Source: Raineyella fluvialis (GTDB taxonomy: Bacteria; Actinomycetota; Actinomycetes; Propionibacteriales; Propionibacteriaceae). From it: DNA of 64,000 nucleotides. The notes beneath the pieces were generated by a model. The model was not told the origin of the DNA, did not search any database, and saw only the letters and a program-made list of their open reading frames with translations. The stretch covers positions 3,286,001-3,350,000 of the forward strand of contig NZ_CP045725.1 in the NCBI RefSeq assembly GCF_009646095.1, in the 5' to 3' direction. Within the stretch, counting starts at the first letter, position 1. Each line of letters opens with the position of its first letter. Made by a program: the position numbers and the translations under genes. This document shows, one piece after another, positions 18,303 to 63,422 of the stretch.

Positions 18303-20980
<2,678 letters not shown>

Positions 20981-23356: not shown

Positions 23357-23815
23357 GTGAACCTCTCAGCGCGCACCGAGTACGCCGTCCGCGCGATGGT
23401 GCACTTGGCGACCGCCGATCCGGCCGAGCCGATGACCTTGGACTCCGTCGCCCAGCAGGAGGACCTGCCGCGCAAGTTCATGGAGGCGATCTTCGCCGAC
23501 CTGCGGCGGGCCGGGCTGATCACCAGCCTGCGGGGATCTCGCGGCGGCTACTTCCTGGCCCGTAGCGGTGACGCCATCACCATCGGCGACATCATGCGGG
23601 CCGTCGACGGGCCTCTCTGGGAGGTGCGCGGGCTGCGCCCCCAGGACACCGAGTATCGCGGCGTCACCCAGCACCTGCCGACCCTGTGGGTGGCGGTGCG
23701 CGCCTCCCTGCGCGCGGTGTTGGATTCGACCTCGCTCTCCCAGCTCGCCAGCGGGCATTTCAACGATCGCGTGACGGCACTGACCGCCGATGACGGCGCC
23801 TGGACCAACCACTGA
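23357..23815 (+). CDS. Rrf2-family transcriptional regulator without cysteines
   Basis: The 152-aa protein has the Rrf2 winged helix (NLSARTEYAVRAMVHLATADP... VAQQEDLPRKFMEAIFADLRRAGLITSLRGSRGGYFLAR). It contains no Cys at all, so it cannot hold an IscR-type Fe-S cluster through the usual three Cys. It therefore resembles CymR, the cysteine-metabolism repressor that works with CysK. It sits directly upstream of, and in line with, the organosulfur cluster and is its best candidate regulator. The link is inference. Confidence 0.85.
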   Translation: MNLSARTEYAVRAMVHLATADPAEPMTLDSVAQQEDLPRKFMEAIFADLRRAGLITSLRGSRGGYFLARSGDAITIGDIMRAVDGPLWEVRGLRPQDTEYRGVTQHLPTLWVAVRASLRAVLDSTSLSQLASGHFNDRVTALTADDGAWTNH

Positions 23816-23835
23816 GGCTTTGCCCTTACCCGCCG

Positions 23836-23854
23836 CGTGCCATGACTCGGCACG
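23836..23854 (+). terminator. Small hairpin after the rrf2 gene
   Basis: Arms CGTGCC (23836-23841) and GGCACG (23849-23854) with a 7-nt loop; a weak terminator candidate. Confidence 0.4.
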
Positions 23855-23892
23855 GCCAACCGACCTGAGCGGCACTTTATACCCCTTATTCC

Positions 23893-23939
23893 TACATCTT
23901 TAGTGATGTATTGACTCGCCTTATTGTTCTGGCTAACGT
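23893..23939 (+). promoter_or_regulatory. Promoter and palindromic operator of the organosulfur cluster
   Basis: TTGACT (23911-23916) and TAACGT (23934-23939) are separated by exactly 17 bp, a good sigma-A promoter. Directly upstream lies the perfect palindrome TACATC-N6-GATGTA (23893-23910), abutting the -35 box in an unusually AT-rich stretch (23878-23935). This is the likely binding site of the adjacent Rrf2 regulator. Confidence 0.65.
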
Positions 23940-23980
23940 CGAGGCCACGAAGCCCATCGCCTCCCTCGAAAGGCCGCCCC

Positions 23981-24526
23981 ATGACCCAACTGCTCACCGT
24001 CTCCGGCAGTCCATCGGCCACCTCCCGGGGAAACGCCCTCGCCCGGCTCGTCGGCGCCCAGCTGACCGGCAATGGACACTACGTGGACCACCTCGCCGTC
24101 CGGGACCTGCCGGCCGACGCGCTGCTGCACGCCGACTTCGCTGATCCGGCCATCCGAGCCAGCCAGGACGCAGTCGCCAGCGCCGAAGGCCTGGTCATCG
24201 TGACACCGGTCTACAAGGCGTCCTTCTCCGGGGCTCTCAAGGCATGGCTGGACCTGCTGCCACAGACGGCGCTCGACGGCAAGACCGTGCTACCGCTGGC
24301 GACCAGCGGCTCCCTCGCCCACGCCCTCGCCCTCGACTACGCCCTGCGGCCGGTGCTCCAGGCCCTCGGCGCCCGCCACGTCGTGCAGAGCCACCTCGTC
24401 ACCGACACCCAGATCGCGGTCCAGGCGGACGGCACCGTACGCCTCCACGAATCGGCGGTGGAACGGCTCGACGCCGCCGTCGAGGCGTTCTCCACCGCCC
24501 TGCCGTACGTCTCCGCCGCCGCGTGA
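23981..24526 (+). CDS. ssuE: NADPH-dependent FMN reductase (SsuE-like)
   Basis: This 181-aa flavodoxin-fold reductase (LLTVSGSPSATSRGNALARLV as the FMN-phosphate loop, VIVTPVYKASFSGALKAWLDLLP for the isoalloxazine site) supplies reduced flavin to two-component monooxygenases. ATG 23981 is preceded by GAAAGG. It is the first gene of the cluster and lies 18 bp before the SsuD gene, the usual pairing. Confidence 0.85.
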   Translation: MTQLLTVSGSPSATSRGNALARLVGAQLTGNGHYVDHLAVRDLPADALLHADFADPAIRASQDAVASAEGLVIVTPVYKASFSGALKAWLDLLPQTALDGKTVLPLATSGSLAHALALDYALRPVLQALGARHVVQSHLVTDTQIAVQADGTVRLHESAVERLDAAVEAFSTALPYVSAAA

Positions 24527-24544
24527 CACCGAGAGGACCCCACC

Positions 24545-25693
24545 ATGCTCGACGTCAACTGGTTCCTGCCGACCTACGGAGACTCCCGCGGGATCGTCGG
24601 TGGCGGCCACGGGCAACCGGCCCGGACCGCCTCGAAGGATCGCCCGGCCACCCTCAGCTACTTGTCCCGGATCGCCACCGCCGCCGACGACCTGGGCTTC
24701 GAGGGCCTGCTCGTGCCGACCGGAGCCTGGTGCGAGGACGCCTGGGTGACGGCCGCCATGCTCGCGGCCATCACCGAGCGGATCAAGTTCCTGATCGCGC
24801 TGAGGCCCGGGGCGATCAGCCCGACCCTCGCCGCCCAGATGGCTTCCACCTTCCAGTGGCAGTCCCGCGGCCGGCTGCTGCTCAACGTGGTCACCGGCGG
24901 CGAATCACACGAACAGCGGGCGTACGGGGATCACGAGGACAAGGCGAGCCGGTACGCCCGCTGTGACGAGTTCCTGCGGGTCGTCAACGCGCTGTGGCAG
25001 TCCGAGAAGCCGGTCAGCTTCCGGGGCGCGTACTTCGACATCGAGGACGCCACCCTGCAACGACTGCCCGACCCGCGGCCACCGCTCTATTTCGGCGGAT
25101 CCTCCGGACCGGCGGGGCCGGTCTTCGCCGACAACTGCGACGTCTACCTGACCTGGGGCGAACCGCCGGCCGCGGTCCGGCGCAAGGTCGAGTGGATCCG
25201 CGGTCTGGCGGAGGAACGCGGTCGCACCGTCGAGTTCGGCATCCGGCTGCACGTGATCACCCGGGACACCTCCGCGGCGGCCTGGGCCGAGGCCCAGCGG
25301 CTGCTCGACGGTGTCTCCCCCGAGCAGATCGCCCGGGTGCAGGCAGGGCTCCGACGCTCTGAGTCCGAGGGACAGCAACGGATGCTGGAACTCAACCGGG
25401 GCACCAAGGACGGACTCGAGGTCTCCCCCAACCTGTGGGCAGGCGTCGGACTCGTCCGCGGCGGCGCCGGCACGGCGCTCGTCGGGTCGCACACCGAGGT
25501 CGCGGACCGGCTCGAGGAGTACGCCGAGCTGGGCCTGACGAAGTTCGTGCTGAGCGGTTACCCGCATCTCGAGGAAGCCTATTGGTTCGGCGAGGGTGTC
25601 CTGCCGATCCTCGAGGAGCGTGGCCTGTGGAAGCACCCCGGACGGCCCGGCGCCGCACCGGTCAGCCATGTTCCGTTCGCCGCGGCGATCTGA
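24545..25693 (+). CDS. ssuD: FMNH2-dependent alkanesulfonate monooxygenase (SsuD-like)
   Basis: This 382-residue luciferase-like monooxygenase has FLIALRPGAISPTLAAQMASTFQWQSRGRLLLNVVTGG, typical of SsuD. It also has a Cys in GAWCEDAW and the R-x-H pair in FGIRLHVI, which correspond to known SsuD active-site positions. It releases sulfite from alkanesulfonates. It could also be the close relative SfnG (dimethylsulfone). ssuABC genes are absent from this cluster; the importer at the end is MetNIQ-like. Confidence 0.85.
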   Translation: MLDVNWFLPTYGDSRGIVGGGHGQPARTASKDRPATLSYLSRIATAADDLGFEGLLVPTGAWCEDAWVTAAMLAAITERIKFLIALRPGAISPTLAAQMASTFQWQSRGRLLLNVVTGGESHEQRAYGDHEDKASRYARCDEFLRVVNALWQSEKPVSFRGAYFDIEDATLQRLPDPRPPLYFGGSSGPAGPVFADNCDVYLTWGEPPAAVRRKVEWIRGLAEERGRTVEFGIRLHVITRDTSAAAWAEAQRLLDGVSPEQIARVQAGLRRSESEGQQRMLELNRGTKDGLEVSPNLWAGVGLVRGGAGTALVGSHTEVADRLEEYAELGLTKFVLSGYPHLEEAYWFGEGVLPILEERGLWKHPGRPGAAPVSHVPFAAAI

Positions 25694-25701
25694 GCCGGGA
25701 C

Positions 25702-26926
25702 ATGACGACAACCGGCATCCCGGCGAGGACCGGACAGCACGCGCCGACCGTTCCCGTCCTCGATGCGGACAGCGCACGGATGATCGCCCGGGGGCTCGCG
25801 GCCACGTACACGGACAGGGCAGCGCACCGTGATCTCCACCGGGAGCTCCCGGCACCGGAGATCGAGTCCCTGAGCGCCAGCGGCCTCCTGGCGCTGGGAG
25901 TCCCGACCGCCTTCGGCGGCGCCGGCGCCGGCGCCGCGACCGTGGCCGAGGTGCTCCGCATCCTGGCCACCGCCGATCCGAACATCGCCCAGATCCCCCA
26001 CTCCCACTTCGTGTATCTCAACCTGGTGCGACTCGCCGCGCCACCAGACCTGCAGGAGGAGATCTTCTCCGCCGTGTTGCAGGGAGCACGGCTCGGCAAC
26101 GCCCAGTCCGAGCTCGGTGGTCCGACCGCTCTCTCGGTCACCACCCGGCTCAGCCCGGACGCCGCCGGCGGCTACCGGCTGACCGGCCGCAAGGGCTACG
26201 CCACCGGCGCGTTGTTCGCGACCTGGATCCCGGTTCTCGCAGGCCTGGCCGGCACCGATGACCAGGTGGTCGCCTTCGTGCCTCGCGACGCCCCGGGCGT
26301 GACCGTGATCGACGACTGGGACGGCATCGGCCAGCGCACCACCGCCAGCGGCCAGGTTCACCTCGATGACGTCGCGGTGCCCGCCCACCGGGTGATCAGC
26401 CGCCGGGCGGCGGTGTCCGGACCGTACGGCTACGGGGCGTACGCCCAGTTGTTGCACGGTGCCATCGACGCCGGGATCGCGGAGGGGGCACTTGCCGAGG
26501 CCGCGGCGTTCGTCCGGACGACGGCGCGCCCGCATCACGAGGCCGCGGTGGGACGCGCGGTCGATGACCCCTCACCATCCAGCGCGTGGGCGAGCTCGAG
26601 GTGCGACTCCGTGCCGCCGCGGCCCAGCTGCGAGTGGCCGCCGAGCAGTCGACGCCGTGCAGACGACCCCGGACGAGGACCTGGCCACGGAGGCGACCCT
26701 GGCGGTCGCGGCCCTCAAGATCCTCGCCACCGAGGCGGCCCTGGCTGCGGCCGAGGGCGGCTTCGAGATCTCCGGCACCCGCGCCGCAGGACGTACGTAC
26801 GACTACGACCGGCACTGGCGCAATGCCCGCACCCACACGCTGCACGACCCGGTGCGCTGGAAGTACCAGCACCTCGGCCGATACCGCCTTACCGGCGAAC
26901 GACCGCCACGTACCGGGACGCTGTGA
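25702..26926 (+). CDS. SfnB/DszC-type flavin monooxygenase, acyl-CoA dehydrogenase fold (two frame breaks)
   Basis: The sequence has the acyl-CoA dehydrogenase fold (SASGLLALGVPTAFGGAGAG, GNAQSELGGPTALSVTTRLS, TGRKGYATGALFATWIPVLAG, VTVIDDWDGIGQRTTASGQVHLDDVAVP). It lacks acyl-CoA specificity signs and ends DYDRHWRNARTHTLHDPVRWKYQHLGRY, the DszC/SfnB-like C-terminus. Adding one C at 26568-26571 and one G at 26645 gives 408 continuous residues. Such proteins use reduced flavin to oxidise sulfur or other heteroatoms of organosulfur compounds. ATG 25702 follows the ssuD stop by 8 nt. Confidence 0.8.
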
Positions 26927-27044
26927 TCGCGTCCGCCCGCCGCAGCCGGCCATCGGTCCCGCCGCACGGCACCCCCCGCCCAAAAGCACCTGCCCGACCG
27001 ACACCCGATCCACAGAGACCTGATCCAGGAAGACCGAGGCCCCG

Positions 27045-28504
27045 ATGACCGACCGACCCGCCCGGACCCCCGGGCGCGAGATCCTCTTCAACGCGTTCGA
27101 CATGAACTGCGTCGCCCACCAGTCCCCCGGCCTGTGGCGTCATCCCGACGACCGGGCCCGTACGTACACCACGCTCGGCTACTGGACCGACCTGGCCCGC
27201 ACCCTCGAGCGTGGCCTGTTCGACGGCCTGTTCCTCGCCGATGTCCTCGGCACGTACGACGTCTACGGGGCGAGCAACGAGGGGCCCCTGCGAACCGGCG
27301 CCCAGGTCCCCGTCAACGATCCGATCCTGCTGGTTTCGGCCATGGCCGCGGTCACCGAGCACCTCGGCTTCGGGGTGACAGCGGGCACGGCGTACGAGCA
27401 CCCGTACCCGTTCGCCCGGCGGCTGGCGACCCTCGACCATCTCACCGAGGGCCGGGTGGGTTGGAACGTCGTCACCGGCTACCTCCCATCCGCGGCGCAG
27501 AACCTGGGTCACCGCGACCAGATGTCCCACGACGAGCGCTATGACCACGCCGACGAGTACCTCGAGGTGGTGTACAAGCTGCTCGAGGGCTCCTGGGAGG
27601 ACGACGCGGTGCTCGACGACAGCGTGAAGGGGTTCGTCGACCCGGCGAAGGTCCACGCCATCAACCACCACGGCCGCTGGTTCGACGTGCCCGGTATCGC
27701 GATCACCGAACCGAGCCCTCAGCGGATGCCAGTGGTCTACCAGGCAGGCACCTCGCCACGGGGAGTGACGTTCGCCGGCGAGAACGCGGAGGCGGTGTTC
27801 ATCAGCTCGCCCACCGTCGACATCATGCGTGACAGCGTCCGGAAGGTCCGGGCCGCTGCCGTTGCTGCCGGACGGGACCCGCAGGCCATCCGGGTATTCG
27901 CCATGAACACGATCATCACCGCCGCCACCGACGAGGAGGCGTGGGCGAAGTTCGAGGAGTATCGCCACTATGCCGATCCGGAGGGTGCACTGGTGCTGCT
28001 GTCCGGATGGACCGGGGTCGACCTGTCACGGTTCGGCCTGGACGAGCCGGTCGGCACTGTGGAATCCAACGCCATCCGGTCGGCGGTGGAGACCATCCTC
28101 GGCGCCCGGCGAGAGGACGGCCGTCCATGGACGGTCCGGGACTTCAGCGAGTACATCGGTGTGGGCGGATTCGGGCCGATCCTCGTCGGCTCGGGGCCAC
28201 GGTGGCCCACAAGCTGGCTGCGCTGCAGGACGAGACCGACGTCGACGGCTTCAACCTGGCGTACGCCATCACGCCCGGCACGTTCGAGGACATCGTCGAG
28301 TTCGTGGTGCCGCAGCTGCAGGATCTCGGGCGCTACAAGACGGCCTACACCCCCGGAACGCTGCGCCACAAGCTGTTCGGACGCGGCGACCGGCTCCCGA
28401 CGGACCATCGCGGCAGCCGGTTCCGGATCGGCGGCGACCTGTCCACCGCCTCGGACCACCTGGAGTCGATCACCTCCCAGCTCGCCGGGGTCGCCCGGCC
28501 CTGA
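27045..28504 (+). CDS. NtaA/SnaA/DszA-family flavin monooxygenase (frame-broken)
   Basis: This 486-residue luciferase-like enzyme (after adding one G at 28193-28196) has EILFNAFDMNCVAHQSPGLWRHPDDR, GRVGWNVVTGYLPSAAQNLG and DERYDHADEYLEVVYKLLEGSWEDDAVLDD. All are hallmarks of the NTA/pristinamycin/DBT-sulfone monooxygenase family. The C-terminus (YKTAYTPGTLRHKLFGRGDRLP) is intact in the shifted frame. It probably uses FMNH2 from SsuE to cleave C-S or C-N bonds. Its neighbours suggest sulfur release, but the substrate is unknown. Confidence 0.85.
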
Positions 28505-28582
28505 CCCTGTCCCGGTCCGCTCCCGACCAGCGGGTCCGCCCCGCTGAGGCTCCCACCCTCTTCCCACCCCTGGAGAAACCCC

Positions 28583-29887
28583 ATGACCACCGCACAGCTC
28601 CGCCGCCTCACCGGCCCCACCGCTCGCCCCGCGCTGCTGGCCGCCGCACAGCGCCTGATCCCGGTGTTCGACGAGCTCGCCGCCGGCGCCGTCGCCCGGG
28701 AGGCCGACCACGTGATCGACCACGACGCGATCGACCGGCTCCGCGCCGCCGGCTACACCACCCTGCGGATCCCGACGGAGTTCGGCGGCGCCGGACTCGG
28801 ACTGGCCGAGTTCTACCCCTTCGTCATCGAGCTCGGCGCCGCCGATCCCAACCTGGTGCAGGCCCTCCGGGCGCATCTGCTGTGCGTCGAACAGCTGCTG
28901 GCCGCTCCGCAGGGCGAACGACGCGCCCGGTGGTTGCAGCGCATCGGTGCCGGAGCGGTGGTCGGCAACGCCGTCACCGAGGTTGACAACCGGGTCGGCC
29001 AGGTCACCACCCGGGTGTCCCGCGACGGCGACGCTTTCCGGCTGGACGGAACGAAGTACTACAGCACCGGAAGTCTCTACGCCGACTGGATCCAGGTCCA
29101 TGCCGAGGACGAGGAGGGCCGCAGCGTGTGGGCTTTCGTCCCGTCGGACGCCCCCGGCGTCACGATGACGGACGATTGGGACGGCTTCGGCCAGCAACTG
29201 ACGGCATCTGGCACGACAGTCTTCACCGGCGTCCCGGTGGCCGCCGACGAGGTCGTGTCGAGCCCCTACAGCACAGCGGCGAGCCACGCCCAGGCGCTGG
29301 CCCAGTCCGTCCACCTGGCCAACCTCGCCGGGATCGCCCAGTCGATCGTCCGCGACGCCACAGCGTACGTGGCCGGCCGGACCCGTTCCTACAGCCACGC
29401 CAACACCCCATTGCCGCGCCACGATCCCCAGGTGCAACAGGTCATCGGTGAGCTGTCGGCCACCGCGTACGCCGCGCGGGCGATCTTCCTGACGTTCGTC
29501 GACGAGCTGGCCGAGGTCCAGCACCGGGTGGCCGCGGGCGTCGCGACCGACGACGACTACACAGCGATCGACATCAGCGCCTACCAGGCCCAGCTCGCCA
29601 TCGCGCCGAGTGTGCTGCGCGCCGCCACCCAGCTGTTCGAGGTCGGCGGCGCCTCCCAGACCAGCAGGGCGCGCGGACTCGACCGGCACTGGCGCAACGC
29701 ACGGGTCCTGGCCCAGCACAACCCGCTCATCTTTCGTGCCCGGCTCGCCGGATCGCATCTGCTCAACGGCGGCCATCGCGCCGTCCAGTACACGGTCGGG
29801 ACCGCTCCCGCTGCGGTTGGCGCTCCCGCCGCGACCAGCAGCACGGCCGGTGCCGCCGCGGACAGCGGATTCCCCGTCGGCAGCTGA
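28583..29887 (+). CDS. DszC/SfnB-like flavin-dependent monooxygenase
   Basis: This 434-residue protein has the acyl-CoA dehydrogenase fold (LRAAGYTTLRIPTEFGGAGLGLAEF, VGNAVTEVDNRVGQVTTRVS, LDGTKYYSTGSLYADWIQVHA, FGQQLTASGTTVFTGVPVAADEV and the C-terminal LDRHWRNARVLAQHNPLIFRARLAG). The extra length is a low-complexity Ala/Gly tail. DszC and SfnB relatives oxygenate thiophenes or sulfones with reduced flavin. ATG 28583 has GGAGAAACC upstream. It is intact, unlike its neighbours on either side in this assembly. Confidence 0.85.
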   Translation: MTTAQLRRLTGPTARPALLAAAQRLIPVFDELAAGAVAREADHVIDHDAIDRLRAAGYTTLRIPTEFGGAGLGLAEFYPFVIELGAADPNLVQALRAHLLCVEQLLAAPQGERRARWLQRIGAGAVVGNAVTEVDNRVGQVTTRVSRDGDAFRLDGTKYYSTGSLYADWIQVHAEDEEGRSVWAFVPSDAPGVTMTDDWDGFGQQLTASGTTVFTGVPVAADEVVSSPYSTAASHAQALAQSVHLANLAGIAQSIVRDATAYVAGRTRSYSHANTPLPRHDPQVQQVIGELSATAYAARAIFLTFVDELAEVQHRVAAGVATDDDYTAIDISAYQAQLAIAPSVLRAATQLFEVGGASQTSRARGLDRHWRNARVLAQHNPLIFRARLAGSHLLNGGHRAVQYTVGTAPAAVGAPAATSSTAGAAADSGFPVGS

Positions 29888-29905
29888 CCAGCAGTCCGGC
29901 GCACC

Positions 29906-29953
29906 CAAAGCACCCGTCACTCAAAGCCCCCGTCACGCAAAGCCCCCACCAAA
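29906..29953 (+). repeat. Three tandem 16-bp repeats between two flavoprotein genes
   Basis: Units CAAAGCACCCGTCACT, CAAAGCCCCCGTCACG and CAAAGCCCCCACCAAA start at 29906, 29922 and 29938. They occupy the short gap before the third flavoprotein gene. Meaning unknown; possibly replication slippage. Confidence 0.7.
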
Positions 29954-29983
29954 GCCCGCGCTCCACCCGAAAGTGAGACCCCG

Positions 29984-31231
29984 ATGACCGAGATCCTGCA
30001 GACCCCGCCCACCACCGACCAACTGCGGGCGCACTTCGCGCCGGTACTGGCGCGCATCCACGCCGGCGCCGTCGACCGGGAACGGGACCGGATCCTGCCG
30101 TTCGACGAGATCCGCGAGCTGGCCGCCGCCGGTTTCGGCCGACTGAGGATCCCGACCGACCGGGGCGGCTTCGGGGCCTCCTTCGAGCAGCTCATCGAGG
30201 TGCTGATCGACGTCGCGACCGCCGACAGCAACATCGCCCAGGCACTGCGTGGCCACCTCGGCTTCGTCGAGGACGTGCTGGTCTCGCCGGATGCGGACTT
30301 CCGGGCGTTCTGGATCCAGGAGATCGCGGCCGGAGCCCTGGTCGGCAACGCTGAGACGGAGAAGGCCGGCAATTACGGCAACCCTGCCACCCGGGTGGTC
30401 GAGACCGACGGCCGATTCCTGCTGAATGGCACGAAGTACTACACCACCGGGACCCTCTACTCCGACTGGACGCGGGTCACCGCGGAGCTGGTCGGCGCGG
30501 ACGGCGACGCCACCCTGATCCATCTCGCGGCCAGAACGGACGACCCTGGTGTCACCACCGTCGACGACTGGGACGGGTTCGGGCAGCGGCTCACCGCCTC
30601 GGGCACCACGACCTTCCTCGACGTGCCGGTCGACCCCCGGTTCTTCGTGCCGCTCGGCAGCCAGCAGACCCTCATCTGGCCGATCTACCAGCTCGACCTG
30701 CTGGCGAGCCTGGTCGGCATCGCCGAAGCGGCGACGGCCGAGATCATCGCCTTCCTCCGGCAGAAGGGCCGCAACGCCTGGAACCCGACCGTCGCCCCCA
30801 CCCAGGACCCGGCCGCCCTGTATGCCGTGGGCTCCGTCCGGGGCCGCACCGGGCTGGTGCGCGCCGCCGTCGTCGACGCCGCCCGTCGGCTCGGCGCGGC
30901 CCTCGACCAGCACCAGGCCGGGCACCTGGACGAATCCGACTTCGACGACGTCGACGCGTACGTCGCGCAGTTGTGGCCGGTCGTCATCGAAGACGTCCTG
31001 CGGATCACCTCCGAGATCTTCGAGGTCGGCGGGGCTTCGGCGACGGCCAGCGGACGGCAGCTGGACCGGTTGTGGCGCAACGCACGCACGATCGCGTCGA
31101 ACAACCCCAGCTTCCACCAGACCCTGGCCGTGGGCGACCACGCGCTGAACGGCGTCCCGGTGAGCACCTTCATCCACAACGCGCTGGCCCCGATCCAGCC
31201 CGCCGCGACGGTCGCGGCGCCCAGCGCCTGA
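29984..31231 (+). CDS. Third DszC/SfnB-like flavin-dependent monooxygenase
   Basis: This 415-aa acyl-CoA dehydrogenase-fold protein has LAAAGFGRLRIPTDRGGFGASFEQLIEV, TATADSNIAQ-type N-terminal helices, LNGTKYYTTGTLYSDWTRVTAEL, DDWDGFGQRLTASGTTTFLDVPV and LDRLWRNARTIASNNPSFHQ at the C-terminus. It is clearly paralogous to the two preceding flavoproteins. It probably takes reduced flavin to oxidise an organosulfur (or C-N) substrate, and it may pair with the DszA-type enzyme encoded next. Confidence 0.85.
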   Translation: MTEILQTPPTTDQLRAHFAPVLARIHAGAVDRERDRILPFDEIRELAAAGFGRLRIPTDRGGFGASFEQLIEVLIDVATADSNIAQALRGHLGFVEDVLVSPDADFRAFWIQEIAAGALVGNAETEKAGNYGNPATRVVETDGRFLLNGTKYYTTGTLYSDWTRVTAELVGADGDATLIHLAARTDDPGVTTVDDWDGFGQRLTASGTTTFLDVPVDPRFFVPLGSQQTLIWPIYQLDLLASLVGIAEAATAEIIAFLRQKGRNAWNPTVAPTQDPAALYAVGSVRGRTGLVRAAVVDAARRLGAALDQHQAGHLDESDFDDVDAYVAQLWPVVIEDVLRITSEIFEVGGASATASGRQLDRLWRNARTIASNNPSFHQTLAVGDHALNGVPVSTFIHNALAPIQPAATVAAPSA

Positions 31232-31332
31232 CCTCACCGGTGGCCGCACCGCAGTGGGCGGCCACCGGCCCACCCTCGCACGGACGCGCCCGCTCCGTGC
31301 GGCCCGCCCGGACTTGCCGACAGGACCTCCCG

Positions 31333-32697
31333 ATGGCCGACCAGCCTCTCGCCTTCAACGCCTTCCTGATGAACACCCCCAGCCACATCCACCACGGACA
31401 GTGGCGTCACCCCGACGCGCACCAGGTCGAGTTCAACAGCCTGCGGTTCTGGGTCGACCTGGCCCGTACGCTCGAGGAGGGGCTCTTCGACGCAATGTTC
31501 TTCGCCGACGTCACCGGCCTCTACGGACCCCCGGACGGCCGGTTCGCGGACAACGTGACCGAGGGTCTGCAGATCCCATCCAACGACCCGGCAGTGCTCC
31601 TCAGCGCGCTGGCGCTGGCCACCGAGCACATCGGCCTGGCCTACACCTCGAACATCATGCAGAACCCGCCGTTCAACTTCGCCCGGCAGATCTCCACCCT
31701 CGACCACCTCACCGGCGGACGGGTGGCCTGGAACATCGTCACCTCCACCCAGGAGAACGCGGCGCGCAACTTCGACCTTGCCGGCCTGTTGGACCACGAC
31801 GCGCGCTATGACTGGGCCGACGAGTACCTCGATGTGCTCTACAAGCTCTGGGAGGGCTCCTGGGACGAGGACGCGGTCGTGCTGGATCGGGCGGGCAATC
31901 GGTACGCCGACCCGGCAAAGGTGCACAAGATCCACCACCGCAGTGCGCGATACAGCGTCGAGGGGCCGCATCTGGTCGCACCGTCGCCGCAGCGCACCCC
32001 ACTGCTCTTCCAGGCGGGCGGATCGGCTCGGGGCATCGCGTTCGCGGCTCGCCATGCCGAGGCCGTCTTCATCACCACTCCGGATCCGGACGTCGCCCGG
32101 GAGCACATCGCCACCACGCGCCGCCTTGCCACGGAGCTGGGCCGACGGCCCGATGACCTGCGGTTCTTCCAGGGCCTGACCTTCGTCGTGGGCGAGGACC
32201 AGTCCGAGGTCGAGGCCAAGCTGGCCGACTACGAGGCGTACGCGTCGATCCTCGGCTACCAACTGCACACCGCCCTCGGGACACTGCCGGACGGCTCGCA
32301 CCTACCCGACGACACTCCACTGCGGGCCATCGCCAACAACGGCGGGCGCGGGCACGTGGACTGGGTGAGCGCGACCGTCGATGGTCGCGAACCCACCCTG
32401 GGCGACCTGGTGAACAGCCGGGTGCGCCGCGGACTGGTCGCCGGCACGCCCGAGCAGATCGCCGACGTCCTCGCCGACTACCGCGACGCCGGAGTGGACG
32501 GCATCAACGTCATCAACTGGCGGCTCCCCGGCACGTACGAGGAGTTCACCCGTCTACTACTGCCCACGCTCCAGCGTCGTGGCCTGGCCAAGCTGGCGTA
32601 CGCGCCCGGCACCCTGCGCCACAGGATCTTCGGGACCGACCGGCTCCCCGATCGCCATCCGGCCGCCCGCTACCGCGGCGCGTACGCCGGCAACTGA
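31333..32697 (+). CDS. Second NtaA/SnaA/DszA-family flavin monooxygenase
   Basis: The 454-aa luciferase-like protein reads LAFNAFLMNTPSHIHHGQWRHPDAHQ, TGGRVAWNIVTSTQENAARNFDLAGL, ARYDWADEYLDVLYKLWEGSWDEDAVVLD, SPQRTPLLFQAGGSARGIAFAARHAEAVFI and GTLRHRIFGTDRLP. These are standard for the NtaA/DszA family. A second copy with clear divergence suggests a different substrate from the 27045 enzyme. ATG 31333 follows GACAGGACC; the frame opens further upstream but without a family match. Confidence 0.87.
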   Translation: MADQPLAFNAFLMNTPSHIHHGQWRHPDAHQVEFNSLRFWVDLARTLEEGLFDAMFFADVTGLYGPPDGRFADNVTEGLQIPSNDPAVLLSALALATEHIGLAYTSNIMQNPPFNFARQISTLDHLTGGRVAWNIVTSTQENAARNFDLAGLLDHDARYDWADEYLDVLYKLWEGSWDEDAVVLDRAGNRYADPAKVHKIHHRSARYSVEGPHLVAPSPQRTPLLFQAGGSARGIAFAARHAEAVFITTPDPDVAREHIATTRRLATELGRRPDDLRFFQGLTFVVGEDQSEVEAKLADYEAYASILGYQLHTALGTLPDGSHLPDDTPLRAIANNGGRGHVDWVSATVDGREPTLGDLVNSRVRRGLVAGTPEQIADVLADYRDAGVDGINVINWRLPGTYEEFTRLLLPTLQRRGLAKLAYAPGTLRHRIFGTDRLPDRHPAARYRGAYAGN

Positions 32698-32748
32698 CCA
32701 AACCCCACCCCTACCGGGAAACACCCGGGAAGAACAGGAAGAGGAACA

Positions 32749-33654
32749 ATGCCCCAGCCCATCGCCCTGCTGAAGGCCGCCGTCGTCGCTGTGTCCCTGG
32801 CGCTGCTCACCGCCTGCAGCGCCGGGAACGCCACCGAACCCAAGTCCGCGGGCCTGCCCACCGACCTGAAGACCGTCAGGATCGGCGTCTCCGATGGAGC
32901 GGAGCCCTACTGGCAGGTCTACGCCCACACCGTGAAAGAGCAGACCGGCGTCACCGTCGAGTTCCAGAACTTCTCCGACTACAACCAGCCCAATCCGGCG
33001 CTGGACCAGAAGCAGCTCGACCTCAACGAGTTCCAGCACCTGCAGTACTTGGCCACGTACAACGTGAAGAACGGCAAATCGCTCCAGCCGATCGGCTCGA
33101 CCGCCATCTACCCCTTGCCGCTGTACTCGAAGAAACACCACAGTCTCGCCGAGATCCCCAGCGGGGGGCAGATCGCCGTGCCCAACGACCCGACCAACCT
33201 GTCCCGCTCCCTCGTCGTCCTGGAGCAGGCGGGCCTGATCACGGTCAGGGGCGGCGCCAACTCGACCTCCACGCCGGCAGAGATCGACCGATCGGCCTCC
33301 CGGGTGACGGTCGTCCCGGTCGACGCGAAGGTCACCGCCCAGAACCTCGACTCGCTGGACGGAGCCATCGTGAACAACAACTACGCCACGGCGGCCAAAC
33401 TCTCCCAGGACCTCATCCTCGCGAAGGACGACCCGACCGCCCAGGCCTCCGCGGCGTACCTCAACGCCTTCGTGGCGCGACCGGAGGACAAGGACAACCC
33501 GACCCTGCTGAAGATCGCGGCGATCTACCACGATCCGACGGTCCAGGAAGCCGTCCGTAAGGATCTGGGGTCCGGAACCTTCCTCAAGCAGGACCCCGCT
33601 GCCCTCCAGGCCAGCCTGGCGACGATCCAACAGCGCATCGCCTCCAAGCAGTGA
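32749..33654 (+). CDS. metQ: MetQ/NlpA-family substrate-binding lipoprotein
   Basis: The 301-aa protein has a lipoprotein signal (LALLTACS, modified Cys about residue 22) and the NlpA fold: TVRIGVSDGAEPYWQVYAHTVKEQTGVTVEFQNFSDYNQPNPALDQKQLDLNEFQHLQYLATYN, VPNDPTNLSRSLVVLEQAGLI and DGAIVNNNYA. MetQ proteins bind methionine. Homologues in sulfur clusters may bind other organosulfur compounds. GAAGAGGAACA before ATG 32749 is a good ribosome site. It is the first gene of the importer and overlaps the longer reading of metN by GTGA. Confidence 0.9.
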   Translation: MPQPIALLKAAVVAVSLALLTACSAGNATEPKSAGLPTDLKTVRIGVSDGAEPYWQVYAHTVKEQTGVTVEFQNFSDYNQPNPALDQKQLDLNEFQHLQYLATYNVKNGKSLQPIGSTAIYPLPLYSKKHHSLAEIPSGGQIAVPNDPTNLSRSLVVLEQAGLITVRGGANSTSTPAEIDRSASRVTVVPVDAKVTAQNLDSLDGAIVNNNYATAAKLSQDLILAKDDPTAQASAAYLNAFVARPEDKDNPTLLKIAAIYHDPTVQEAVRKDLGSGTFLKQDPAALQASLATIQQRIASKQ

Positions 33655-33701
33655 CGCGCACTCCTCCGATCTCCCGACTCCTCTGCCCCGGAAGGACCCC
33701 T

Positions 33702-34856
33702 GTGACGGCCATCGTCAGCCTTCGTCACGTCTCCAGGACGTTCACGCCCCGACGGCGCTCCTCGACCGCCCCGGCGGTCACTGCTGTCGACGACGTCAGC
33801 CTCGACGTCGAGGCCGGTAGCGTGACCGGGATCATCGGGCACTCCGGGGCCGGGAAGTCGACGCTTGTCCGGCTGATCAACGCCCTCGAACTGCCCGACA
33901 GCGGTGCGGTGGAGGTCGGCGGGCGCGAGGTGACGTCGCTGAGCGAGCGGGAGTTGCGGCGACTGCGCTCCTCCATCGGGATGATCTTCCAGCAGTTCAA
34001 CCTGTTTGGATCGCGAACGGTCGAGCAGAACGTCGAGTACCCGCTGCGGATCGCCGGCTGGGACAGGGCCGAGCGGTCCCGTCGGGTCGCCGAACTACTC
34101 GCGTACGTCGGCATGTCCGGGGCAGCGCACCGGTTCCCCGGACAGCTGTCGGGCGGCCAGAAGCAACGGGTCGGGATCGCCCGGGCACTCGCCACCAGGC
34201 CATCCCTCCTGCTGGCCGACGAGGCCACCAGCGCCTTGGACCCGAACACCACCGCAGAGGTCCTCGAGCTGCTGCAGCGGGTGAATCGCGACACGGGCAC
34301 CACGATCGTCGTGATCACCCACGAGATGAACGTCGTACGCTCGATCTGCGACACGGTCGCGGTGATGGAACACGGCCGCCTGCTCGACCACGGCCCGGTC
34401 TACGACGTCTTCGCCCACCCACGGTTCCCGGAGACCCGACGCTTCATCGAGTCCACGATCCAGGACGCGCCGACCGCGGCCACGATCGACCGGCTCCGGG
34501 CCCATCATCCCGGCACGTTCGTGACGGTTTCCATCGTCGACTCCGCTGCCGCGTCCGCCGGTCCGTCCGCGCAGCAGCAGGTGCTCGAGACGCTGGCCCG
34601 CCACCGGAGCGTGAGCAGCGGCGTCGTCTTCGGCGCGGTCGTCGAGATCGCCGAGCGCCCGTACGGGTCACTCACCTATGCGCTCGACGGGTCACCCGAC
34701 GCGGTCCGAGCACTGGTCGACGACCTGGCGGCGAGCACCAGTGTGACGGTCTGGCCGGCCGTGACGCCGGACGGCGACGCGGCGCCACCACAACCGGGCG
34801 GACCCGCCCTCGTCACCACGCCTGACCGCCTCGAGGTGAAGGGCGGCCGACGATGA
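33702..34856 (+). CDS. metN: MetN-type ABC importer ATP-binding protein
   Basis: The 384-residue ATPase has Walker A GHSGAGKST, GMIFQQFNLFGSRTVEQNV, signature LSGGQKQRVGIARALA, Walker B LLADEATSALDP and H-loop THEMNVV. A C-terminal NIL-type regulatory domain (about 270-345) is followed by a short extra tail. GTG 33702 is preferred over GTG 33651 because GGAAGGA lies 6 nt upstream and the homology begins there. NIL domains in MetN bind methionine for feedback inhibition. Confidence 0.9.
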   Translation: MTAIVSLRHVSRTFTPRRRSSTAPAVTAVDDVSLDVEAGSVTGIIGHSGAGKSTLVRLINALELPDSGAVEVGGREVTSLSERELRRLRSSIGMIFQQFNLFGSRTVEQNVEYPLRIAGWDRAERSRRVAELLAYVGMSGAAHRFPGQLSGGQKQRVGIARALATRPSLLLADEATSALDPNTTAEVLELLQRVNRDTGTTIVVITHEMNVVRSICDTVAVMEHGRLLDHGPVYDVFAHPRFPETRRFIESTIQDAPTAATIDRLRAHHPGTFVTVSIVDSAAASAGPSAQQQVLETLARHRSVSSGVVFGAVVEIAERPYGSLTYALDGSPDAVRALVDDLAASTSVTVWPAVTPDGDAAPPQPGGPALVTTPDRLEVKGGRR

Positions 34857-35512
34857 TCGACTGGACCATTATGGGACCACTCCTGGGGCAGTCCGTGGTC
34901 CAGACCCTGCAGATGGTGTCCCTGACGATGCTGGTGGGGGCGGTGGCCGGGACCCTCATCGGGATCCTGCTCTACGCGACCAGACCCGGCAACCTGCTGG
35001 AGCATCGGGTGCTGTTCGCCGCCGTCAACCTGCTGGTCAATGTCGTGCGGCCGATCCCGTTCGTCATCTTCATCTCCTTGGTGCAACCGTTGTCACTCGC
35101 ACTGACGGGTCGCTCGGTGGGAACGCAGGCGGCGATCCTCCCGATGACCCTGATGGCCTCGGTCGTGGTCGGCCGCATTGTCGAACAGAACCTCGTCGGG
35201 ATCGACGCCGGGCTGGTCGAGGCCGCCCGGGCGATGGGCGTCTCCCGGACCAGGGTGCTGCTCGACGTGGTGGTCAGGGAGTCCATCGGACCCCTGGTCC
35301 TCGGCTACACCTTCGTCTTCATCGGCGTGGTCGACATGTCCGCGGTCGCCGGCTACATCGGTGGCGGCGGCCTCGGGGACCTGGCGATCACGTACGGCTA
35401 CCAGCAGTTCAACTACGCCGTCACCCTGCTCGCGGTGGTGGTGATCATCGTGATCGTTCAACTCGCCCAGGTGATCGGCAACCGACTGGCTCACCGGGTG
35501 ATGCACCACTGA
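34853..35512 (+). CDS. metI: MetI-type ABC importer permease
   Basis: The 219-aa permease has about five membrane spans and the EAA loop GIDAGLVEAARAMGVSRTRVLLDVVVRESIGPLVLGYT. It overlaps metN as ATGA and completes the MetNIQ transporter. It is the last gene of the cluster, closed by a terminator shared with the convergent RNA methyltransferase gene. Confidence 0.92.
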   Translation: MIDWTIMGPLLGQSVVQTLQMVSLTMLVGAVAGTLIGILLYATRPGNLLEHRVLFAAVNLLVNVVRPIPFVIFISLVQPLSLALTGRSVGTQAAILPMTLMASVVVGRIVEQNLVGIDAGLVEAARAMGVSRTRVLLDVVVRESIGPLVLGYTFVFIGVVDMSAVAGYIGGGGLGDLAITYGYQQFNYAVTLLAVVVIIVIVQLAQVIGNRLAHRVMHH

Positions 35513-43048: not shown

Positions 43049-44218
43049 TCAGTCCACCACCAGAGGCACGTACATCTCCCCGGCGGTGAGGGAACCGTGC
43101 ATGCCCACGAGACTGAGCTCGCCGGGCAGCCGCCGGGTCATCACCGCCCAGTCCTCGAGCATCGCCACCACGACGTCGCCGTAACGGGGCAGCACCTCGG
43201 GATCGACGTCGCCGAACCAGCCCTCGGCGACCGCATCCTCGCGGAGGCGGACCAGGGCGTGGTCTCCGACCTCCTGGCGCCAACGCTCTGCCACCGCCCG
43301 AGCCCTTCCCGGCACGGTGTAGACCTGCCGGAAGCGACCCTCGCCGGCGACCATCTCGACGTCGCCCTGCAGCGCGGGGACGTCCTCGACGATGACGCGG
43401 TGCTCCTCGGGGATGTCGATCATGCCGTGGTCGCCGGTGACGACGATGCGTACGTCGGCGGGTAGCTCGTCGCGGAAACGCTCGATCAACGCGTCGATCC
43501 GGCGCAGTTGGTGGCGCCACTCGCCGGAATCGACGCCGGCGGTATGGCCAGTGTGGTCGAGCTCACGTTCGTACGCGTACACCACACCACGGGGACCGGC
43601 GGTGGCGGCGCGGACCACCGCCTCCACCCGCTGGTCCTCGTCCCGCTCCTGATGGATGGGGAAGAATCGGGGGCCGGCGAGGGCGACCTGGGTCAGCCCG
43701 GAGCCCTCGAACCGCGCCGGAGCCACCATGCCGACCGCGAGACCGGCGTCGGCGAGGGCCTGCAGGCGGGTCGGGTGGGGTTGCAGGGAGACGGGATCGT
43801 CCTCCCCGTCCCAGGAGAGCATGTTGAGGAAGGCGCCGGTACGCGGATGCCGGGCGGAGTAACCGACGATTCCGTGCCGCCCGGGGACCAGGCCGGTGCC
43901 GAGGCTGGTCAGGCTGGTGACGGTGGTCGAGGGCAGACCGCTGGTGAAGCCGTCGAACGGCGCATGATCACCCTCCCCGCGCAGCAACGACGCCAGGTAC
44001 GGGGCGTGGTCGGCGTGGTCGGCGAGCTGGAGCGCGCCGAGTCCGTCGACCAGCACCAGCACCCAGCGGTCCGCCTCGGGCAGCCCGAGGACGTCCGGTC
44101 CGGCCTGGCCCAGCCGGGCGCCGATCGCCGGCAGCAGGTCACACAGGGACCCGCGCCCGTACTGCGGCAACGTCACCTGACCGGACGCGGGGTACATGGG
44201 TCCCGCGACAGACCTCAT
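43049..44218 (-). CDS. Alkaline phosphatase superfamily phosphodiesterase
   Basis: The 389-aa protein has VLVLVDGLGALQL (first metal Asp), the nucleophile Thr in GLPSTTVTSLTSLGTGLVPGRHGIVGY, HTAGVDSGEWRHQLRRID and VTGDHGMIDIP. This is the type I nucleotide pyrophosphatase/phosphodiesterase fold. There is no signal peptide, so it should be cytoplasmic. The substrate is unknown. ATG 44218 overlaps the DUF5998 stop. Confidence 0.85.
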   Translation of the reverse strand: MRSVAGPMYPASGQVTLPQYGRGSLCDLLPAIGARLGQAGPDVLGLPEADRWVLVLVDGLGALQLADHADHAPYLASLLRGEGDHAPFDGFTSGLPSTTVTSLTSLGTGLVPGRHGIVGYSARHPRTGAFLNMLSWDGEDDPVSLQPHPTRLQALADAGLAVGMVAPARFEGSGLTQVALAGPRFFPIHQERDEDQRVEAVVRAATAGPRGVVYAYERELDHTGHTAGVDSGEWRHQLRRIDALIERFRDELPADVRIVVTGDHGMIDIPEEHRVIVEDVPALQGDVEMVAGEGRFRQVYTVPGRARAVAERWRQEVGDHALVRLREDAVAEGWFGDVDPEVLPRYGDVVVAMLEDWAVMTRRLPGELSLVGMHGSLTAGEMYVPLVVD

Positions 44219-44801
44219 GAGACGTTCGACGACTGCTGCAGCGCCAGCCCGAACCGGAGGAGTTGGGCCACTCCCTCGGCGCCGTCCGCGTCGCTGCTCA
44301 TCCGCATCACCAGGTCGTCACCGACGAGTTGGCCCGTCAGTCCGTGGTCCGCGTCGCAGTCGGGGTTGTCACAGGTGGCCGGCTCGAGGTCGATCCGCGA
44401 GGCGAAGCCCCACGCCACCGTGAGCAGCGCCTCCTGGACGCCCGCCTGACCGGGACGGTAGGTGCTCGGCTCGTTGACGATGCGGCTCAGACTGACCGAG
44501 GAGATCCGGCTCAACCCGACGACCTCGCTCGTCGACGCGGCCTGGGCCCCGCGCCCGGACTGGCGTCGGCGTCGTCGGTGTGGTTGATGATCAGCCGGGT
44601 GGGTGTGAGCACCGCCACGGTCACGTGACGGTGGATGCCGTCGGGGGTGATCGTGGGTTCGTGCTGGACGACGTAGGAGACCATCTCCTCCGTGCCCAGC
44701 GAGATCATCACGCTGTCATGGACGAGGGCCGGAAAGTAACCGCACGCCTCGATAGCGGCCCTGAGTTCGTCCGCGCCCGTCAGCTGTTCCGATCCAGTCA
44801 C
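44215..44801 (-). CDS. DUF5998 family protein (frame-broken)
   Basis: The N-terminal frame (LRAAIEACGYFPALVHDSVMISLGTEEMVSYVVQHEPTI... VTVAVLTPTRLIINHTDD) and the C-terminal frame (LSRISSVSLSRIVNEPSTYRPGQ... CDNPDCDADHGLTGQLVGDDLVMRMSSDADG) join when one G is added to the run at 44547-44550. The result is 195 residues, the normal DUF5998 length. Function unknown. GTG 44801 is chosen; GAAGAT lies 6 nt upstream, as at hemE. Its stop overlaps the phosphodiesterase start. Confidence 0.85.
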
Positions 44802-44901
44802 CCGGCCATCTTCGCACATCGGGTGGAACCACCGGATCCCCGAAAGTGATCGGCCACCCCGTCGGGCGGCCCGCGGATGACGTGGTGCCCGGTCGTGTGT
44901 G

Positions 44902-62369: not shown

Positions 62370-62448
62370 TCGGCTCAGGGTCGGCTCGGGAATGAATTCC
62401 ACGCTGAGGGACGTTGAATGTCCGTAGGTAACGGAAAGGGGCCCTCCT

Positions 62449-63422
62449 GTGGCTACGACGCGCACACGCACCAGCGATGGCATCGACGGCAAGGACGCGG
62501 TCGGTCTCTACCTCGACGGCATTGCGAAGACCGCACTGCTGAGCGCCGAGGAGGAAGTCGCCCTCGCGAAAAAGATCGAACTCGGCCTCTACGCCGAACA
62601 TATTCTGTCCGGCGACGTCACGACTGCCGAGCGGCGTGCCGCCGCAGCCGAACGCGACGGGCTGACGCTGCGGCGGCCGACCGTCCAGGAGCTCGAGTTC
62701 CTCGTGGCCGAGGGGAGCAGGCGATGCAGCGGTTCGTCCAGGCCAACCTGCGCCTGGTGGTGTCGGTGGCCCGTAAGTACGGTCGCGGCCAGATGCCGTT
62801 GCTGGACCTCGTCCAGGAGGGCAACACCGGCCTGATCCGTGCGGTCGAGAAGTTCGACTACAGCAAGGGATTCAAGTTCTCGACGTACGCCACCTGGTGG
62901 GTCCGTCAGTCCATCTCCCGGGGTATCGCCCAGCAGGGACGCATCGTCCGGCTCCCCGTCCACGTGGCCGAACAGGTCAACCAGGTCGGGGCCGTGCGCC
63001 GCACCCTCGAGCGCGCCCTGGGGCGTGAGCCGGAGCTGGCCGAGATCGCCGCCGAGATGGGCCTGGAGGAGGAGAAGGTCATCGACCTGATCCGCTTCGG
63101 CCATGACCACGTCAGCCTGGACGCCCCGGTGGAGCAGGACGGCGACACCGCCCTGGGTGACCTGATCGCCCGTGAGCCCATGCCCGGACCAGACGAGGTC
63201 GTCCTGGACGCCGAGGACCACGCGCTCCTCGAGGACCTGCTGTCGACCCTCGACGACCGGTCGGCCGATGTCGTCCGCCGCCGCTATGGGCTGCTCGACG
63301 GCCGGCAGGCGAAACTCGCCGATATCGGCGCCGTCTGGGGGATCACCGCCGAGCGGGTCCGACAGATCGAACGGCACGCGATCACGCAGCTCCGCGTCCG
63401 GAGCGAGGAAATGGCTGCCTGA
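62449..63422 (+). CDS. sigB: Group 2 sigma-70 factor (SigB/HrdD-like, frame-broken)
   Basis: The N-terminal frame from GTG 62449 ([36 protein letters not shown]) joins the second frame ([87 protein letters not shown]) when one G is added at 62712-62715. The result is a 324-residue sigma with regions 1.2, 2, 3 and 4 ([27 protein letters not shown]). It lacks the long SigA N-terminus. AAAGGGG precedes the start. It is probably a stationary-phase or stress sigma factor. Confidence 0.9.

Follow-up and report, generated by a model that had tools for sequence, protein, structure and literature searches.

A shared promoter box links an organosulfur oxygenase and MetNIQ gene cluster of Raineyella fluvialis, headed by a CymR-like Rrf2 gene, to other sulfur loci

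This analysis concerns an eleven-gene organosulfur block of the actinobacterium Raineyella fluvialis, located in a 64,000-nucleotide window (contig NZ_CP045725.1, positions 3,286,001 to 3,350,000; the window is the whole stretch analysed, and positions below follow its numbering unless a genome coordinate is given). The source genome (G000) is a single 3.65-Mb contig and was compared with three genus relatives, G001, G002 and G003. The interval 23357–35512 runs exactly from the start of rrf2 through the stop codon of metI, all on the + strand, in the order rrf2, ssuE, ssuD, sfnB1, ntaA1, sfnB2, sfnB3, ntaA2, metQ, metN, metI; in these limits, order, single direction and gene families, a first-pass annotation made from the sequence alone was right. 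Pfam and NCBIfam profile scans covered ten of the eleven genes, the broken sfnB1 excepted. The locus is genuine and its enzyme kinds are ordinary; the new part is a promoter box and the regulon proposed from it. Gene content, intactness in relatives, the shared box, the context of the regulator and the MetQ pocket were established directly. The block is probably a sulfur-starvation operon under the control of the CymR-like Rrf2 protein, with MetNIQ as a parallel importer and not the sulfonate importer.

The regulator gene rrf2 (23357–23815, +) encodes a CymR-like protein of 152 residues that scores 115.5 bits against Pfam Rrf2 and, as had been noticed in the first pass, contains no cysteine; 22 of 23 aligned Rrf2 sequences are without the cysteine for an iron–sulfur cluster. 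It is the sole Rrf2 match above the Pfam cut-off in G000, the other being partial and below it (20.8 bits), and its closest solved structure is CymR (2y75). A predicted operator, composed of ATTCCTAC as its left half and an imperfect dyad, occupies 23888–23911 (+), upstream of the −35 element and touching it. The promoter-like sequence itself, TTGACT-17-TAACGT with a weak −10 (23911–23939, +), was read by eye, and its TTGAC is conserved in G003 and G001. Next comes ssuE (23981–24526, +), encoding a flavin mononucleotide (FMN) reductase that passes TIGR03567 (213.2 bits, cut-off 164.05), with its start, the ATG at 23981, picked by conservation. A consensus promoter scan returned no promoter-like site, the TTGACT element included; terminator-like sites numbered three against 2.9 expected by chance, all on the − strand; and Rfam at its gathering cut-off gave no match between positions 18000 and 40000, so no RNA control was seen there.

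In three species the box at ssuE is found again at ssuCBA, and in two it marks a gene for a sulfate-binding protein. A perfect 6-6-6 palindrome lies 5′ of ssuE, for which a genome search returned one exact copy and 36 places at two mismatches, against four in the control. One of the 36 is directly 5′ of ssuCBA, part of a separate permease–ATPase–binding-protein–ssuD set of G000 labelled ssuCBA-ssuD2, and there the likeness extends through the promoter. At the ssuE and ssuCBA loci of G000, G003 and G001, a 28-base element makes six sites with 0–3 mismatches to the consensus; the palindrome is not kept at all six, and ATYCCTAY is. Across the 3.65 Mb of G000, ATTCCTACATCTTTAG occurs exactly twice (ssuE and ssuCBA-ssuD2), with no further place at up to three mismatches. 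The 16-mer ATTCCTAYATCTTTAG has two G000 copies within three mismatches, both exact and both at these promoters, and none in G002; its reversed-pattern control also gave two places within three mismatches. AWYCCTAY has a single copy in the window, at the ssuE promoter, and ATTCCTAY has 15 copies in G000 against one for the reversed control, three of which precede ssuE, ssuCBA and a sulfate-binding-protein gene. Before this last gene, the box stands 63 bases from the likely ATG and 42 from the longest frame; in G002, where no cluster gene stands beside rrf2, it precedes that genome's own sulfate-binding gene. The box overlaps a TATAAT word at the sulfate-binding genes of G000 and G002, and abuts the −35 element at ssuE. 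Over 13 sites, A1 and C4-C5-T6-A7 are invariant, with T17 in 10/13, G19 in 11/13, A23 in 10/13 and T24 in 12/13, so composed as to suggest an imperfect dyad of the kind a dimer would use. The palindromic form AWYCCTAYN7ATRGG with at most one mismatch stayed near control level (two against two in G000, 15 against 11 in the four genus genomes), so the right half of the genus sites is degenerate. The literature searched, mostly without subscription journals, yielded no account of this operator in actinobacteria.

The association of rrf2 with sulfur genes extends beyond the genus. Of 293 genomes searched across the order, 176 have an Rrf2 match at E ≤ 1e-20, and genus g26 includes genomes with and without one at that threshold; 20 loci were taken, namely that of G002 and 19 from outside the genus. 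Five of these 19 link rrf2 to sulfur transport genes (G267, G020, G248, G222 and G157). In the first three, where rrf2 is 58–61% identical, it ends an operon for a sulfate-binding protein, CysT, CysW and CysA; the G267 sulfate-binding protein, CysT and CysW pass NCBIfam cut-offs (CysA was outside the scan), and the G020 and G248 transporter sets are 71–87% identical to those of G267. The G222 orthologue (59%) faces a gene for a TauE/SafE permease, and that of G157 (50%) comes after an SsuABC-type set. AWYCCTAY stands upstream in all five, against 0.04 expected from its density; these loci hold six copies in all, five of them at sulfur promoters, and the stricter ATYCCTAY marks three of the five promoters with no other copy in these loci. 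Linkage to sulfur genes and the shared promoter box, in the genus and at these five loci, predict that rrf2 works like a CymR-type sulfur regulator. The proposal of a single locus for sulfur starvation, with an Rrf2 regulator of sulfur type, has held up, through the box common to the ssuCBA and sulfate-binding promoters and through the orthologues beside sulfur transport genes.

Several observations weigh against this assignment. The link between Rrf2 and the box is solely one of adjacency and co-occurrence, and the protein misses the CymR equivalog NF047409 (96.2 bits, cut-off 195). From the 19, the five outgroup loci were selected because sulfur genes adjoin rrf2; W was admitted at the second position of the box after the sites had been seen; the three CysPTWA operons are homologous to one another; and in G157 the box falls within the SsuA-like gene when this is read as its longest frame, being upstream only relative to an internal start of our choosing. 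Beside rrf2 in the other 14 outgroup loci (39–51% identical), no sulfur operon was recognised with limited queries and few family scans; three of these unlinked orthologues, at 51%, exceed that of G157 at 50%. In G000, most ATTCCTAY copies (12 of 15) lie away from any gene recognised as a sulfur gene, the sulfate-binding gene examined in G003 and G001 is preceded by AAACCTAG and AAACCTAT and not by the box, and no box stands before the second metQ of G000 or its sulfite reductase (SiR)–cysH genes, the examined stretch around the latter (L019) having no AWYCCTAY.

These observations leave room for a different sulfur regulator, such as one of ROK type, to act at the box, with Rrf2 an unrelated neighbour. 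Such a reading would fit the 14 outgroup loci and also G002, in which rrf2 adjoins thiC without the cluster. Against it, the four closest fetched outgroup orthologues (58–61%) and one at 50% adjoin box-bearing sulfur transport genes, the aligned Rrf2 proteins nearly all lack the iron–sulfur cysteine and CymR is the closest solved relative, and no other regulator gene was seen at the two ssu loci, the ssuCBA neighbours having been scanned in part. We regard another regulator as unlikely, and control by the CymR-like Rrf2 remains preferred. Its extension, in which Rrf2 would be a sulfur-starvation master regulator of Propionibacteriales that scores below the CymR cut-off and acts through an AWYCCTAY-N7-RTNG box on sulfate uptake and, where present, organosulfur and sulfonate scavenging, is tentative, with somewhat less than an even chance of being correct.

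Further occurrences of these elements were recorded alongside. The 12 other ATTCCTAY sites lie inside open reading frames of the filtered list in five cases, one of them antisense, and AWYCCTAY copies occur in six of the 14 unlinked outgroup rrf2 loci. Two more copies of ATTCCTAC (L185, G000 2082856; L177, 142906) are followed, after 23 and 41 bases, by predicted genes without a known sulfur link. The boxed sulfate-binding-protein gene (L022 1405–4549, G000 1441.4–1444.5 kb) is accompanied on the same strand by a luciferase-like/FMN-reductase pair. A second sulfate-binding-protein gene of G000 (2726318–2727013, L174) has a related AAACCTAC element upstream, and the unboxed G003/G001 gene resembles it in upstream and leader sequence; G003 also has a second sulfate-binding gene.

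The enzymes of the block begin with ssuD (24545–25693, +), an alkanesulfonate monooxygenase gene whose product shares 185 of 366 aligned residues with E. coli SsuD and conserves all four active-site residues (C54, H228, R297 and Y331 of E. coli SsuD; precursor numbering is +1). SsuD aside, the oxygenases are ordered SfnB-NtaA-SfnB-SfnB-NtaA, and the alternation of DszC- and DszA-type genes previously described is roughly right, not exact. The five genes are likewise of the kinds that had been named, but two are frameshifted in this sequence. The SfnB/DszC-fold monooxygenases are encoded by sfnB1 (25702–26926, +), which has two frameshifts in the assembly, is open in G003 and was assigned from its likeness to sfnB2/sfnB3 and to the DszC and MsuC structures, and by sfnB2 (28583–29887, +) and sfnB3 (29984–31231, +), both placed by family scans and solved relatives. 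The NtaA/DmoA-family monooxygenases are encoded by ntaA1 (27045–28504, +), closest to DmoA, with one frameshift and open in G003 and G001, and by ntaA2 (31333–32697, +), placed by family scan and solved relatives, closest to HcbA1, LadA and DmoA. Both NtaA proteins pass TIGR03860 (444.4 and 470.7 bits, cut-off 279.7). Shortfalls against narrower models count against our reading of the block: SsuD reaches 436.5 of the 518.2 bits of TIGR03565, and SfnB2 and SfnB3 reach 265 and 225.5 of the 430.9 bits of the SfnB equivalog TIGR04022. Against the DszC equivalog NF043015 (cut-off 850), they score 115.2 and 119.7.

Relatives of the oxygenases were ranked by bit score against solved structures, an order of homology that gives neither substrates nor a phylogeny; molecule names come from the structure listings, and DmoA, LadA, HcbA1, MsuC and TdsC are short gene names. 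The readable 379 residues of NtaA1 score 441 bits with DmoA (dimethyl-sulfide monooxygenase), 388 with LadA (alkane monooxygenase) and 297 with HcbA1 (hexachlorobenzene dehalogenase), followed by riboflavin lyase (250), DszA (247), YtnJ, presumably CmoJ (192), nitrilotriacetate (NTA) monooxygenase (184) and ethylenediaminetetraacetate (EDTA) monooxygenase (116). For NtaA2, the leading relatives are HcbA1 (415), LadA (385) and DmoA (361), followed by riboflavin lyase (248), DszA (235), YtnJ (227), NTA monooxygenase (180) and EDTA monooxygenase (133). By sequence, the NtaA-type enzymes thus appear nearest DmoA, LadA and HcbA1, not DszA or NTA monooxygenase; a grouping with NTA-type enzymes, which the first pass had raised as contrary to its own proposal, did not emerge, the NTA and EDTA monooxygenases falling well below the leading three in this structure ranking. 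SfnB1 is related to DszC (99.6 bits) and MsuC (93.6), SfnB2 to TdsC (115.7), an unnamed probable monooxygenase, 8cda (113.6), and MsuC (106.4), and SfnB3 to DszC (107.6), TdsC (98) and MsuC (86.5).

Comparable neighbourhoods exist elsewhere. Among the best 80 of 432 SfnB relatives, with loci from named genomes, an NtaA-type gene occurs in 43 loci, at least two SfnB genes in 29 and a MetQ-like gene in nine; MetQ, NtaA and at least two SfnB genes coincide within the stretch analysed in five (L094, L116, L127, L136 and L144), all from Proteobacteria, and the cluster is therefore of a kind already known. L116, from Cupriavidus neocaledonicus, resembles it in the one-directional order ssuE-SfnB-SfnB-SfnB-NtaA-metQ-metN-metI; it differs in that no ssuD, rrf2 or second NtaA-type gene was detected in the locus, and its MetQ pocket is changed at three of seven positions, N238 included. 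A Propionibacteriaceae metagenome-assembled genome (L068) has the oxygenase set at 61–80% identity.

The importer genes close the block. The metQ gene (32749–33654, +) encodes a methionine-type binding lipoprotein, metN (33651–34856, +) an ATP-binding cassette ATPase (Pfam ABC_tran) with a NIL domain (29.6 bits, Pfam cut-off 24), whose true start may lie downstream, and metI (34853–35512, +) a permease recognised in the Pfam and NCBIfam scans. MetQ keeps seven of seven methionine contacts, Y81, F98, H100, Y103, R156, N213 and N238 in N. meningitidis numbering; the contact residues and the N229/N238 equivalence come from PMC6739813, and the other six were placed by motif. Six of the seven are kept by the second MetQ of G000; of the nine MetQ-like proteins from other SfnB loci, one has the complete set and two have six. 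On the opposite side of the balance, NCBIfam importer cut-offs are missed by MetN (287 of 499.7), MetI (145 of 212) and MetQ (MetQ/NlpA models, 140 of 228.85 and 142.7 of 374). Since the MetQ contacts are complete, a separate ssuCBA-ssuD2 set is present and a second metQNI lies elsewhere in G000, MetNIQ most plausibly imports methionine or a thioether amino acid alongside the oxygenases and does not substitute for SsuABC.

The same pocket would suit a salvage pathway for S-alkylcysteine or other thioether amino acids, in which the substrate would enter through MetNIQ and be oxidised and dealkylated by the SfnB- and NtaA-type enzymes, as by CmoO/CmoJ in Bacillus (PMC10863075). The solved structures related to the two NtaA proteins do include B. 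subtilis YtnJ, but it ranks below DmoA, LadA, HcbA1, riboflavin lyase and DszA. Moreover, family scans matched no block gene to an N-acetyltransferase or deacetylase, and SsuED together with the box common to ssuCBA indicate sulfonates, so that we consider dedicated salvage improbable and retain the sulfur-starvation operon with a parallel MetNIQ importer.

The condition of the genes raises the further question of decay, in which the frameshifts of sfnB1 and ntaA1 would mark loss of function. Relative to G003, three single-base deletions fall in these two adjacent genes, two in sfnB1 and one in ntaA1. Both are open in G003, however, which has the same cluster open throughout, and frame changes relative to G003 affect five of 35 comparable window genes whose G003 copies are open, two of ten in the cluster (sfnB2 left out of the count) and three of 25 outside. 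The breaks outside the cluster suggest an indel-prone assembly. The ratio of nonsynonymous to synonymous substitution (dN/dS) against G003 is 0.06–0.23 for ten genes, with metN left out and sfnB1 and ntaA1 represented by their 5′ parts; these readable parts give 0.23 and 0.06, respectively. Against G001, six genes give 0.12–0.27. With both genes open in G003 and frames also broken outside the cluster, the breaks are probably assembly indels, and decay is about as improbable as dedicated salvage. G001 also has the cluster, but metNIQ is missing from the locus, the flanks being ~43 bases apart between ntaA2 and a TrmA-like gene (L014), and from this junction metNIQ appears to have been gained or lost as a unit. 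In G002, thiC and rrf2 are present, a 20-kb stretch has no match to the other cluster proteins, and the best genome-wide match to SfnB2 reaches merely 3.7e-6. Least likely is the first-pass proposal that MetNIQ imports organosulfur compounds broadly, supplying the oxygenases with substrates in place of SsuABC, for although metQ follows ntaA2 in the same direction after a 51-base gap and MetQ-like pockets at other SfnB loci are often altered, as in Cupriavidus, this MetQ keeps every methionine contact, the separate ssuCBA operon bears the same box and G001 retains the oxygenases without metNIQ at the locus.

From these observations we infer Rrf2 binding, repression, substrates and transcription of the block as one unit, as follows. 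In B. subtilis, CymR is a repressor of cysteine metabolism whose targets include the ssu sulfonate genes (PMC3828012). By analogy, with ample reduced sulfur an Rrf2 dimer would sit on the 23888–23911 box and block the ssuE promoter, and under sulfur shortage it would leave the box. SsuE would then supply FMNH2 to the group D (SfnB1–3) and group C (NtaA1, NtaA2 and SsuD) monooxygenases. Judging by homology, the SfnB-type enzymes may oxidise thioethers or sulfinates stepwise, the NtaA/DmoA types may cleave C–S bonds and SsuD may convert the resulting alkanesulfonate to sulfite. Sulfite would be reduced by the sulfite reductase encoded apart from this cluster, in the SiR-CysH-CysD-CysN block, while MetNIQ would provide parallel uptake of methionine or a closely related thioether amino acid and sulfonates would enter through the separate, box-bearing ssuCBA operon. 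The SiR, CysH, CysD and CysN genes lie in one direction with a CbiX-type chelatase gene (L019 5887–11988, G000 3.15 Mb).

Related systems are already described. The CymR regulon of Bacillus and Staphylococcus, in which relief at low cysteine involves CysK in Bacillus, is alike in that CymR is the closest solved structure to this Rrf2, and differs in that the host here is an actinobacterium and the box was derived from these genomes, not from a published CymR motif. In Rhodococcus IGTS8, a CymR/Rrf2 protein, MetQ, MetN, SsuD and an NtaA-type protein are higher on dibenzothiophene than on sulfate, and the Rrf2 protein IGTS8_peg394 (Rhodococcus qingshengii), found only in the dibenzothiophene culture, was put forward as a candidate for global sulfur regulation (PMC8557817). 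The two actinobacterial proteins are likened by description, not by alignment; according to the same paper, peg394 has no adjoining sulfur genes, whereas here genes and box are linked. Gordonia 135 on dibenzothiophene raises sfnB, two acyl-CoA dehydrogenases and an NtaA/DmoA protein (PMC11852219). Acinetobacter baylyi ADP1 takes dimethyl sulfide (DMS) to dimethyl sulfoxide and dimethyl sulfone with group D enzymes, later steps reach sulfite through SsuD, and one flavin reductase serves all monooxygenases (PMC13352529), which makes many oxygenases per reductase, flagged in the first pass as a large set, less unusual. The block resembles ADP1 in its group D enzymes, SsuD and single reductase; ADP1 uses an SfnG homologue at the sulfone step, where the block has NtaA/DmoA types, and metN and Rrf2 are absent from the main text of PMC13352529. 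That no group C enzyme of Acinetobacter oxidised DMS (PMC13352529) counts against our scheme. The Dsz 4S pathway likewise combines DszC-fold and DszA-family enzymes with an FMN reductase, but the block has no DszB-type gene, its proteins score far under the DszC model, and DszA comes only fifth in the structure rankings of NtaA1 and NtaA2. Such enzymes are induced or used without sulfate (PMC8557817, PMC11852219 and PMC13352529).

Tying the box to the Rrf2 family at sulfate, sulfonate and organosulfur genes offers a cheap and concrete test of both regulator and regulon, in a setting where Rhodococcus desulfurization work (PMC8557817) named Rrf2 merely as a candidate without linked sulfur genes, and it separates methionine uptake from sulfonate uptake in such composite loci. 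As to its surroundings, the block has thiC as its left neighbour, and to its right, on the opposite strand, lie TRAM/RNA-methyltransferase-like, DUF3710 and dUTPase-like genes; the frame-changed genes outside the cluster are at 18306–20980, 44218–44819 and 62380–63419 of the window.

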